A stretch of DNA of 37,744 bases from Ilyobacter polytropus (lineage in GTDB: Bacteria > Fusobacteriota > Fusobacteriia > Fusobacteriales > Fusobacteriaceae), in contig QKCP01000067.1 in NCBI GenBank assembly GCA_003246855.1, positions 1-37,744 of the forward strand. The letters run 5' to 3'. How positions within the stretch are numbered: position 1 is the stretch's first letter; each line of letters begins with the position of its first letter. The notes under the pieces were generated by a model. The model did no database searches. It was not told the origin of the DNA and was given only the letters and a program-made list of their open reading frames with translations. Shown here in pieces: positions 20,521 to 36,061 of this stretch. The translations under genes were made by a program, and so were the position numbers.

Positions 20521-20716
20521 CCCGTAAACTTGTGTAAAAAAAAACTGGTATTTATAAATATAATTAACTATAAACTCATAGCTGATTTTGATTATTGCTT
20601 AGCTATAACGATTGCACACACTATTTTGCATTTAAGACTTGTTTCAGTTAATATTCCTTAGAAAAAGGTTATCATGGTAAATGATATTTGGTTTAATTTG
20701 CAATAAGGGGGCCGTT

Positions 20717-21748
20717 ATGGATAAAAAAGATTTGTTGAACAAAGAAATAAAGCATATAGATATAACCAGTTTTGATTCGAGACAAATAATAGAAGCCTTT
20801 GGTGAGACAGCTTTTCAGGCAAGAAATCTTGCAAGGGCAGCAAAGATATATGATAAAATGCTTTCCGACGAAAGCTGCACAGTCATACTCTGTCTGGCCG
20901 GATCACTCTTCAGCGCTGGTCTAAAGGATATCGTATATGAAATGGTCAGAAACAACATGGTAGATGTCATTGTGTCAACTGGGGCTATAATTGTAGACCA
21001 AGATTTCTTTGAGGCTTTGGGATTTAAACACTACAATGGAAGCCCTTTTATAGACAACAAAATGCTACGAAAAATGATGATAGATAGGATATATGACACC
21101 TTTATCGACGAAAAAGATCTGAGGGCATGCGACATGACTATTGCAAAAATCGCAGGGAATTTACCGCCACGCCCTTACTCTTCCAGAGAGTTTATTGATG
21201 AAATGGGGTGCTTTCTGGTTAAAAACGGAAAAAATCCAAAATCCGTTGTTTTAGAATGTCATAAAAAAGGGGTGCCTATTTTTGTACCTGCATTCTCAGA
21301 TTGCAGTGCAGGTTTTGGACTTGCCCACCATCAGTACAATAAAGTTTCTAACCCCAAGGTTACAATAGACAGTGCAAAAGATTTTCTCGAACTGACTAAA
21401 GTTAAGATCAATGCTCAGAATACCGGTCTTATTATGATAGGCGGCGGCGTACCGAAAAACTTTGCACAGGATGTTACAGTCGCGGCAGATATTCTCGGAG
21501 CCGATGTCAGCATGCATAAATACGCCATCCAGATAACCGTAGCCGACGAGAGAGACGGAGGGCTGTCTGGATCCACACTTAAAGAAGCTCATTCCTGGGC
21601 CAAAGTAGACTCCGACTTTGAGCAGATGGTGTATTGCGAAGCCACCATAGCCCTTCCACTGCTTGCGAGCTATGCCTACCACCGGATGAATTGGAAAAAT
21701 CGCAATCCTAAAAATTACAATAATATTCTAGAGGAGGTCGACAAATGA
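20717..21748 (+). CDS. Deoxyhypusine synthase-like enzyme (bacterial DHS family)
   Basis: A 343-aa protein of the deoxyhypusine synthase family, from ATG 20717 (AAGGGGG upstream; an in-frame ATG at 20681 has none). The Rossmann core shows VILCLAGSLFSAGLKDIVYE (about residues 56-75), VIVSTGAIIVDQDF, GFGLAHHQYNK and IGGGVPKNFAQDV, and the family's catalytic Lys lies in SWAKV (about residue 295). Bacteria lack hypusine, and bacterial members are known or thought to make homospermidine or related polyamines by NAD-dependent aminobutyl transfer. Its last four bases (ATGA) overlap the start of the arginine decarboxylase gene: translational coupling. Confidence 0.9.
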   Translation: MDKKDLLNKEIKHIDITSFDSRQIIEAFGETAFQARNLARAAKIYDKMLSDESCTVILCLAGSLFSAGLKDIVYEMVRNNMVDVIVSTGAIIVDQDFFEALGFKHYNGSPFIDNKMLRKMMIDRIYDTFIDEKDLRACDMTIAKIAGNLPPRPYSSREFIDEMGCFLVKNGKNPKSVVLECHKKGVPIFVPAFSDCSAGFGLAHHQYNKVSNPKVTIDSAKDFLELTKVKINAQNTGLIMIGGGVPKNFAQDVTVAADILGADVSMHKYAIQITVADERDGGLSGSTLKEAHSWAKVDSDFEQMVYCEATIALPLLASYAYHRMNWKNRNPKNYNNILEEVDK

Positions 21749-22287
21749 TACCTACAAAGGCGTTTTTTGTAAAAGGTATAGGTGTGCATAAAGATCAGCT
21801 GACCTCTTTTGAAACTGCCCTCAGAAAAGCAGAGATAGAAAAATATAACATCGTTAGTATTTCCAGTATCCTGCCTCCTGGGTGTGAGATAATATCAAAA
21901 CAGGAGGGATTAAAACTTTTAAAACCTGGCCAGATAATACATTCCGTTATGGCAAAAAATCAGACCAATGAACCAAATCGCCTTGTATCTGCTGCGATAG
22001 GGCTAGCAGTTCCAAATGATAAAGAGGGATATGGCTATATCTCAGAGCACATCGCATTTGGTGAGACCGGAAAAAATTCAGGGGAATATGCGGAGGACCT
22101 TGCTGCTACAATGCTAGCAACCAGGCTTGGAATAGAGTTCGACCCTGAAACTGCCTGGGACGAGAGAAAGCAGATTTACAGGGCAAGTGGCAGGATATTT
22201 AAAACTACGCAGATACATCAATCTGCTGAAGGCAATAGGGATAACCTATGGACTACCGTTGTGGCCGCTATAGTTTTCATAATATAA
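21745..22287 (+). CDS. pdaD: Pyruvoyl-dependent arginine decarboxylase (PvlArgDC)
   Basis: A 180-aa pyruvoyl enzyme that converts arginine to agmatine. The autocleavage site is visible as SISSILPPGCE (about residues 38-48): cleavage before the second Ser would give the pyruvoyl alpha subunit and a short beta subunit. Also present are SVMAKNQTNEPNRLVSAAIG and GYISEHIAFGETGKNSGEYA, typical of the family. GAGGAGG lies 9 bases before the ATG. It overlaps the DHS-like gene by 4 bases. No agmatinase, agmatine deiminase or aminopropyltransferase lies nearby, so what follows agmatine is open. Confidence 0.95.
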   Translation: MIPTKAFFVKGIGVHKDQLTSFETALRKAEIEKYNIVSISSILPPGCEIISKQEGLKLLKPGQIIHSVMAKNQTNEPNRLVSAAIGLAVPNDKEGYGYISEHIAFGETGKNSGEYAEDLAATMLATRLGIEFDPETAWDERKQIYRASGRIFKTTQIHQSAEGNRDNLWTTVVAAIVFII

Positions 22288-33852: not shown

Positions 33853-33880
33853 TTAACCCAGGAGTAATCCTGGGTTTTAA
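33853..33880. terminator. Bidirectional terminator between convergent genes
   Basis: Arms AACCCAGGA (33855-33863) and TCCTGGGTT (33868-33876), loop GTAA, A/T runs on both sides, adjoining the stop codon of the minus-strand gene at 33877. Confidence 0.9.
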
Positions 33881-34215
33881 TATATATTGTAATTAGATAC
33901 TAAGCTAATATCTCTTTTAATCTCTTTTTTTATCCAATTTTTAATGCCGTATTCAATAATATCTTTTTTAATAGTAGATTTTTTATATACTATTTCTTCC
34001 TCTTCCAAGCTTTTTAAAAATTCATTATCTGATGCAGAAGATGGTATAAGTCCAGCATTTAAAAAAATTTCTTTTAATAAAAATTTTTCTTCCGGCATTA
34101 AATTTTTAATTGAATCTCTTTTTTGGGAATCAATTTTTATTTTGAAAGCTATTAAGAATGATACGCATGAAAGTATTAAGATATAATATAAAAATTCTAA
34201 TGACATTATTTTCAT
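33877..34215 (-). CDS. Small membrane-anchored hypothetical protein
   Basis: A 112-aa protein. The start at 34215 (MKIMSLEFLYYILIL) has AGGAGG about 8 bases upstream; a TTG two codons earlier is an alternative. One N-terminal membrane helix (about residues 6-24) leads into a Lys/Glu-rich cytoplasmic part: LMPEEKFLLKEIFLNAG, then EFLKSLEEEEIVYKKS, a pattern like a winged-helix or coiled domain in SieB-type superinfection-exclusion proteins, but the match is too weak to name. Very AT-rich. It ends at the terminator it shares with the RND gene. Confidence 0.62.
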   Translation of the reverse strand: MKIMSLEFLYYILILSCVSFLIAFKIKIDSQKRDSIKNLMPEEKFLLKEIFLNAGLIPSSASDNEFLKSLEEEEIVYKKSTIKKDIIEYGIKNWIKKEIKRDISLVSNYNIY

Positions 34216-34221
34216 GTTCAA

Positions 34222-34566
34222 ACCTCCTAATATACAAAAAATTTACATTTACTAAATACTTATATAGTATAACATCCTGACCTATTTTGTCAATTTTCAG
34301 TTTAACAATAAAATCAAAGGATAACTCATTTAAAAAAACTTATTTTTTTTTAAAATGTCGGCAATTAACAATACAAAGTTTAAAAATATAAAATTATTTT
34401 TTAAGATGTAAAGGTGTATCTTTAAAAATAACGCTGAAAAATTTAAAAAATTTAATGAAAATATATATAAATATTAATATAGATAAGAAATATACAAAAT
34501 TTTGAAATCAAAACGAATAACAGAAAATAAAAGGAATGCAGAAAAAATACTTGTATATAATTATAT
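34222..34566. other. Very AT-rich leader of the structured RNA region
   Basis: About 345 bases with no coding frame. The last part (34545-34566) holds TTGTATATAATTATAT-like sequence, which may include the promoter of the RNA starting around 34567. Confidence 0.35.
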
Positions 34567-34680
34567 AAAGCAAGTGTAAAGGAGCAAAACTCCTTTAGGT
34601 TACCGGTATTGAAATCAAATATCGGTGACCTAAGCCCAAGGGCTTTAAAATTGTAGTAACCTATTTAGGGTTGCTTTTTT
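34567..34680 (+). ncRNA. Candidate structured RNA with Rho-independent terminator
   Basis: Four hairpins in order. A closing pair AAAGCAA (34567-34573) with TTGCTTT (34671-34677); TAAAGGAG with CTCCTTTA (34577-34597); AGGTTACCGGTAT with ATATCGGTGACCT (34597-34631, with wobble pairs); AAGCC with GGCTT (34632-34645). A terminator follows: GTAACC with GGTTGC (34656-34674) and six Ts. The terminator's right arm is the same sequence as the closing strand, so two folds exclude each other, as in a riboswitch or attenuator. But no gene follows on this strand for 1.7 kb, so an independent small RNA fits better. It matches no family that I recognise. Confidence 0.55.
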
Positions 34681-34695
34681 ATTTTACGTGGTGTA

Positions 34696-34776
34696 TTTAT
34701 TTTAAGAATGCTTAAGTAAATAAATAAAGCCACCGACTATCCTCTTAAGGCTAAAAGAGTGAATAATCAGTGGCTA
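34696..34776 (+). other. Two further hairpins downstream of the candidate RNA
   Basis: First hairpin: TTTATTTTAAG with CTTAAGTAAATAAA around AATG (34696-34727). Second: AGCCAC (34728-34733) with GTGGCT (34770-34775), with inner CTCTT/AAGAG pairing. A T-run near 34793-34804 could terminate the + strand, and the minus-strand 400-aa gene ends at 34859. Confidence 0.4.
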
Positions 34777-34858: not shown

Positions 34859-36061
34859 TTAAAGAAAGCTAAGCTTTATTATTTCGCCATTCTTTTTAAA
34901 GAATATTATTATCTCTCCGTCTTCGCTTACCTTTATAGCTATCATTCCGTAATATATTGCTGAGAGTGCGGCGGTACTCCTCGCCCCCTTTTCATACTTC
35001 ACATGCTCATGCGGTTTTACCATCGCCCCAAACGCCTTAACCTTACCTTTTTTGTTAAATATAAGCGCCCCGTCTATAGAAGCCAACTCAAGGATTAAAG
35101 GCTTAAATACGTTCTTCACATCTTTTTGAGTGAGGTCTATTTTCTCCAGCCTTTTCCTCAGTATATTTTTGAAAAAGTTATCTGAATTAATAAAGCTCTC
35201 TTCATTTGAAACACAAAGGCTGCAATTATCGTCTAAATCTACGATTATTAGGCCACCGTGCCTTTTATAGCTTAAATCAAAGACTATATGAAATAGATTG
35301 CACCCCATCCAATATTGTGGGGATACAATAGACTTCGTCAATATGTCAACGTAGGTGTTTTTTAAAGTATCAGCTTCATAAATCTTCCAGTTCCCCATTC
35401 TTTTAGAAGCCAGCAAGCCACTCTTGTCAAAAATTATTATATCCTCTCTCTTTGTCCTTATGATTCCGCACTCACCATCTTCTAAAACCGAATAATATGG
35501 GTGCAGAAACCCCGGGATAAGGGCATTTTCCTTTTCCGACCCTATATCCTGCCATTTTATATAGTTGTAATCTATATATGTCCAGTCTCTACCGATTCTG
35601 AAATACGTCATGGTGGAGCCACCCATAACATTTAACAGTTTTTCCTCAGTAAGATCGATCATATTAAACTCGCCTACCAGGTTCTGATTCAATATAAAGT
35701 TGACACCAATATTTTCATTTTCGTGGGTGACGTGTTCCAGACTCTTGAAATAATCAAAGAGTTTCAGCCACTTAACTTTGTCGTAACCTCTTATCTTAAG
35801 CCAGTTAGTCACGATGTAGCTTTCTATCAGCTCTCTTTCTATGGTATGCGACCCCAGCTTTATCTCCAAGAAACGGTTTGCGAACTGGTTTAAAAGTCGG
35901 ACTAATTTTGACATATTTTGGCTGTTCCTTCTAAAGCTTTTAAAATAGTAAGGTATCCCGCCTATGTTTATTTTTGTCCTGTGGAGTCCATAACCATTCT
36001 CACACTCAAAATACTGTGGAATTAAGTCTACGATTAAATTGTATAGTTGCTCTTTCTCCAT
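34859..36061 (-). CDS. Protein with a divergent C-terminal diadenylate cyclase (DisA_N) domain
   Basis: A 400-aa protein without signal peptide or helix. The C-terminal ~150 residues show the DAC fold in order: HGGLIIVDLDD (like TGALIVIER), LILELASIDGALIF (the DGA motif, about residues 323-336), and ARSTAALSAIYYGMIAIKVS (about 358-377). True DACs carry RHR-AAL; here the second and third residues are ST, so ATP-to-c-di-AMP activity is doubtful and nucleotide sensing is possible. The N-terminal ~240 residues are unlike known DAC partners that I recall. It is read away from the MFS gene. AGAGGAG precedes the ATG. Confidence 0.68.
   Translation of the reverse strand: MEKEQLYNLIVDLIPQYFECENGYGLHRTKINIGGIPYYFKSFRRNSQNMSKLVRLLNQFANRFLEIKLGSHTIERELIESYIVTNWLKIRGYDKVKWLKLFDYFKSLEHVTHENENIGVNFILNQNLVGEFNMIDLTEEKLLNVMGGSTMTYFRIGRDWTYIDYNYIKWQDIGSEKENALIPGFLHPYYSVLEDGECGIIRTKREDIIIFDKSGLLASKRMGNWKIYEADTLKNTYVDILTKSIVSPQYWMGCNLFHIVFDLSYKRHGGLIIVDLDDNCSLCVSNEESFINSDNFFKNILRKRLEKIDLTQKDVKNVFKPLILELASIDGALIFNKKGKVKAFGAMVKPHEHVKYEKGARSTAALSAIYYGMIAIKVSEDGEIIIFFKKNGEIIKLSFL

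Follow-up and report, generated by a model that had tools for sequence, protein, structure and literature searches.

A stand-alone protein with two predicted DAC-like folds, allied to the DACNG/DACNH-DAC proteins, whose proteobacterial relatives often adjoin CBASS and type I restriction genes

Diadenylate cyclases (DACs) have been linked to phage defense only recently, through the validated system DS-2 (DefensePredictor), in which a phospholipase and a cGAS-like enzyme are combined with a DAC (PMC13092281). Defense by DS-2 was abolished when the predicted catalytic residues of its DAC were mutated, 15 out of 30 homologs were located with CBASS, and Galperin 2023 is cited for the CBASS-DAC link (PMC13092281). 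Catalysis by DACs requires two DAC domains placed head to head (PMC8573169, PMC6368335), and in DacA of M. tuberculosis the replacement of RHR by AAA abolished ATP binding as well as cyclase activity (PMC3328451).

In the window analyzed here, i.e. the whole stretch of 37,744 nucleotides from Ilyobacter polytropus, we found a protein that we regard as a stand-alone member of a scattered family of tandem DAC-like proteins, which is allied to the DACNG/DACNH-DAC proteins (Table 1). Its single Pfam domain is DAC (PF02457, residues 262-390, E=1.7e-7), with a score of 31.3 bits against a gathering cut-off of 27, and its structural model is matched by CdaA, DacA and DisA, which upholds the divergent C-terminal DAC domain proposed in the initial annotation. 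The protein reads IDGA at residues 329-332 and GARSTAAL at 359-366, with the RSTAAL of residues 361-366 in register with the RHRxA(L) of DisA and CdaA, so that the retention of DGA and AAL and the change of RHR to RST were also correctly called. The same position reads R-H-R in a DisA from the same phylum.

Table 1. Features of the tandem DAC-like gene and its surroundings, in window coordinates.
Feature	Position	Strand	Basis or remark
Tandem DAC-like protein gene, 400 codons	34859..36061	-	Intact ORF, RBS
N-terminal wing, residues 1-90	35792..36061	-	Low model confidence; AF2 secondary structure, pLDDT
First DAC-like fold (predicted), ca. residues 94-226	35384..35782	-	Placed as DACNH is
C-terminal DAC-like domain, residues 249-400	34862..35317	-	Pfam DAC, Foldseek
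DGA motif, residues 330-332	35066..35074	-	D and G unchanged across 34 members of the family
RST in place of RHR, residues 361-363	34973..34981	-	First R conserved throughout; H and second R missing across the family
Probable terminator of the gene, strong hairpin followed by U-rich tail	34723..34775	-	-24.7 kcal/mol, z -5.5
Small SieB-like membrane protein	33877..34221	-	Pfam PF14163, E=5.7e-5, below cut-off; GC 0.212

By employing chained searches, which gathered members from Clostridia, Alphaproteobacteria, Vogesella and plasmids, we could compare the C-terminal domain across 34 family members, all of which share D330, G331, G359, R361 and A364. The position of the RHR histidine is taken by T (16 members), L (13), S (2), K (2) or G (1), and that of the second arginine by A (32), T (1) or Q (1). 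Since H and the second R are thus absent from every member, RST is the window protein's version of a family-wide loss, and the family reveals which active-site residues are strictly conserved (D, G and the first R) as opposed to dispensable (H and the second R). No model in Pfam, NCBIfam or PADLOC covers the full family; among 19 members tested, the DACN-type Pfam models gave zero matches and DAC was the sole credible model matched, in seven of them. The best identity of the window protein to any relative is 23%, its branch is very long (4.94 changes per site) and its placement in the tree is unsettled. A distant homolog of ca. 486 residues is found 5' of xseA in all eight genomes examined of one genus belonging to the host's own family, and apart from that genus the gene is absent from the other genomes of the phylum that were examined. 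A contig search with L013, L014 and L015 yielded 14 loci. Class-wide searches gave 1 out of 369 (the query's own genome) for the class of the Vogesella genome, 2 out of 385 for that of the Rhizobium genome and 11 out of 391, three of them weak, for that of a Clostridia MAG. Single-protein searches among plasmids, phages and viral contigs identified no close relatives beyond one on a gut scaffold, and viral contigs scanned with family alignments gave no matches.

Modeling of the window protein with AlphaFold on a 15-row alignment gave a mean pLDDT of 67 and a pTM of 0.65. All 50 matches listed in the comparison of this model with the PDB are DAC proteins (best E=7.5e-7, probability 1.00), namely CdaA, DacA, DisA, CdaM/DacM and CdaS, and because the listed matches comprise DAC proteins only, the lack of a DAC fold that the initial annotation had named as speaking against it did not occur. 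The model of the relative L026 is better (pLDDT 86.6, pTM 0.86), and its top Foldseek matches are likewise all DACs. The same order of elements, i.e. helix, strand, helices, two strands, helix and three strands, is repeated in both models, in the window protein at ca. residues 94-226 and then at 249-400. This repetition suggests two DAC-like folds in one chain, ordered as a wing, a pseudo-DAC and a DAC-like domain. The statement that the N-terminal 240 residues are unlike those of DisA, CdaA and CdaS was correct as well, the wing and the predicted second DAC-like fold being situated there. Aligned by sequence profile, the N- and C-terminal halves keep the same register, but the match is weak (hhalign probability 1.4%), and a duplication is for this reason read from the predicted structure. 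Against DACNH, the N-terminal domain aligns by profile at the YEG motif alone; the corresponding family motif TYEG is T-H-E-N in the first DAC-like fold of the window protein, with E114 invariant. DACN domains were reportedly defined by Galperin in 2023 as the N-terminal sensor domains of DACs. The kinship of the N-terminal domain to DACs is suggested by its predicted topology, in a model of moderate confidence in the case of the window protein.

The gene itself has an ATG start with AGGAG close upstream, and its composition (GC 0.376, GC3 0.446) matches that of the neighboring genes. It is monocistronic, and its divergent neighbor encodes an MFS transporter. The next gene after its hairpin, that of the SieB-like protein, is far more AT-rich and has a promoter-like site (34293-34266) and a terminator (33876-33855) of its own. 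An operon shared by these two genes was ruled out because of the separate terminator and promoter, and the SieB-like gene does not clearly belong to the unit of the window gene. The promoter-like site of the SieB-like gene is a strong one, and the GC content of that gene is 21%. Phospholipase and CD-NTase genes are absent around the window gene, which has no defense neighbors except for the weak, sub-cut-off SieB-like match, and no credible RNA element or riboswitch adjoins it. Further inverted repeats, without Rfam match, lie in the gap on its 3' side (34560-34680). Elsewhere in the window, at 20681-22287, a gene of the deoxyhypusine synthase family (PF01916, E=1.5e-94) overlaps another gene, by eye a pyruvoyl-dependent arginine decarboxylase, and the two are probably a polyamine pair, which is uncommon in bacteria. 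Two adjoining PII-like genes at 637-1405 resemble NifI1 and NifI2 by eye, which suggests a nif cluster close to the window start.

Among the nine proteobacterial loci compared (L015, L016, L023, L025-L029 and L054), a small sample whose members are akin to one another, CBASS or type I restriction-modification (RM) genes adjoin the family gene in seven, in six of these co-directionally. CBASS is found at L015, L026, L027 and L028, and type I RM around L025, L029 and L054. The order in L026 and L027 is a 2TM Cap15-like protein (assigned by profile in L026 and by its near-identical start in L027), a CapV phospholipase, a CD-NTase and, ca. 31 bases later, the family gene, which is the third slot of the DS-2 arrangement. 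In L028, CapV and CD-NTase are followed by a DACNG-DACNH protein (NCBIfam DS2_3_antiphage, 808 bits) and, 219 bases further on, by the family gene; a DAC of DS-2 type CBASS (L028, 5655-7415) is thereby situated immediately 5' of a second, family-type DAC-like gene. The L015 member is convergent to the adjoining type II CBASS. In the type I RM loci, the family gene is co-directional with hsdS and hsdR on either side of it (L025, 7596-8888; L029, 1190-2476; L054, 8057-9307). The family thus ties one kind of protein to type I restriction operons, in which, to our knowledge, no DAC-like protein has been reported. The remaining two, L016 and L023, have IS elements or an integrase nearby. All loci were found via protein similarity and not via their neighbors, and the link to defense is for this reason not circular. 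A defense role is likely for the proteobacterial relatives. The search for phage-defense neighbors in relatives that the initial annotation had proposed was thus productive, and the tie to nucleotide-based defense is borne out by relatives in CBASS operons, which may be sensors or cyclases, but not by the window copy, which has no clear defense neighbors. The clostridial members, in genomes of ca. 1 Mb, are preceded by smc, by ftsY (identified by eye) and by the gene of a sigma-70 factor resembling SigK by eye; in the MAG loci L017-L024, L030 and L058, the SigK-like sigma factor precedes the family gene in most of those read. Clostridial relatives and those in the host's family occupy fixed housekeeping positions.

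With moderate confidence, we lean towards a nucleotide-binding regulator or pseudo-enzyme sensor that would not synthesize c-di-AMP by the DisA mechanism, because all members have lost two residues of a motif required for ATP binding, and this motif has no counterpart in the partner fold. The N- and C-terminal DAC-like domains may pair within the chain, forming a pseudo-dimer with a composite nucleotide pocket. Such a pseudo-dimer would bind a nucleotide, change shape and gate a partner, with both ligand and partner being putative, instead of joining two ATPs, since H and R are missing from one half and the other has nothing resembling RHR. The ligand could be a CBASS-type cyclic nucleotide in the defense operons, and possibly c-di-AMP or ATP for the window protein, which in a DisA-bearing genome would serve as an auxiliary nucleotide-responsive regulator. 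Against a sensor, a catalytic role is conceivable for the invariant D, G and R, and the need of DS-2 for the predicted catalytic residues of its DAC would be compatible with catalysis. For these two reasons we keep, as possible though doubtful, a cyclase with a remodeled active site, which would either produce a nucleotide signal different from c-di-AMP or make c-di-AMP at a slow rate, and which in the defense-linked relatives would act as the second of two cyclases in a CBASS. Such a cyclase would also fit the position of the family gene in the third slot of a system whose defense needs those DAC residues (PMC13092281), and the phospholipase and CD-NTase of L026 and L027 belong to the PADLOC classes that precede the DS-2 DAC in L028; a similar loss of RHR is seen in the relative of the DS-2 DAC examined here. 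Two of the three RHR residues are nevertheless missing in all members, the partner domain offers no RHR-like motif, and a canonical DAC without RHR lost ATP binding (PMC3328451).

Another explanation turns on the host genome (G000), which encodes an ordinary DisA (C126:53563-53901) and in which a search with PF18144 found no SMODS-family CD-NTase. Tests of 12 genomes, this one included despite its DisA, revealed neither the DarA receptor nor a c-di-AMP riboswitch, and an unrecognized receptor is therefore wanted here. The window protein, in which the pocket of a degenerate synthase could accommodate the product, might be that receptor or regulator, reporting on what the resident DisA makes. 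We consider this improbable, as an ordinary DAC is absent from all seven family-bearing genomes tested outside the phylum, a count drawn partly from MAGs, and the family as a whole can thus not depend on c-di-AMP from one. The same absence was noted in the four clostridial genomes tested (L017, L018, L020 and L024); these absences concern ordinary DACs only, and divergent ones could be missed, since the window gene itself escaped the genome scan with PF02457. Within the phylum, an ordinary DAC occurs in 94 out of 98 genomes, yet the family gene in almost none. That the gene was acquired and is decaying, without function in the host lineage, appears very unlikely to us. The very long branch, the absence from the other phylum genomes examined, bar the one genus with its distant homolog, and the alteration of TYEG and of the N-domain SDG would agree with decay, but the frame of 400 codons is intact, with an RBS, its own terminator and host-like GC3, and all family-invariant residues of the C-terminal domain are retained. 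More speculatively, the family may be a portable nucleotide-signal module, plugged singly into defense operons of two unrelated kinds, CBASS and type I restriction, and domesticated in housekeeping loci, with the window copy as a free-standing one that would respond to a non-CBASS signal. The choice between second cyclase and pseudo-enzyme sensor is directly testable, and the proteins are small and soluble-looking.

In comparison with known systems, the family shares with DisA, CdaA/DacA and CdaS (PF02457) the DAC fold, the DGA motif and the GxR that starts RHR. Unlike these, it is without the H and the second R, its DAC domain is C-terminal, and it has a second DAC-like fold, as predicted, but neither an HhH domain nor membrane helices. 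As with CBASS ancillary genes (E1/E2/JAB, Cap15, CapV), the family gene lies directly 3' of the cyclase and effectors in L026-L028; unlike them, it is also found at hsdS/hsdR, after the SigK-like sigma factor and before xseA. The nearest described relatives are the DACNG/DACNH-DAC proteins, including the DAC of the CBASS-type DS-2 (NF053872, DS2_3_antiphage). The window protein has no match to NF053872, PF21752 or PF21750, and the best NF053872 score among the relatives is 16.1 bits (L017) against a cut-off of 630. The family proteins are shorter and read R-x-A (RTA/RLA) or RST where DACNG/DACNH-DAC proteins read RYN, as does e.g. the clostridial protein L057 (R-Y-N where RHR is expected), in which DACNH, DAC and TPR follow in order. 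Although the window copy, unlike the DS-2 DAC, lies outside CBASS, a patatin phospholipase and a CD-NTase adjoin the relatives L026-L028 just as they do the DS-2 DAC. The C-terminal domains of the two groups align with an hhalign probability of 94%, versus 30% for DisA, whose profile is shallow, and the chain of the family proteins, like that of the other group, would hold two DAC-like parts, the first of them predicted from topology; in both groups the C-terminal domain retains D-G and R while having lost RHR.
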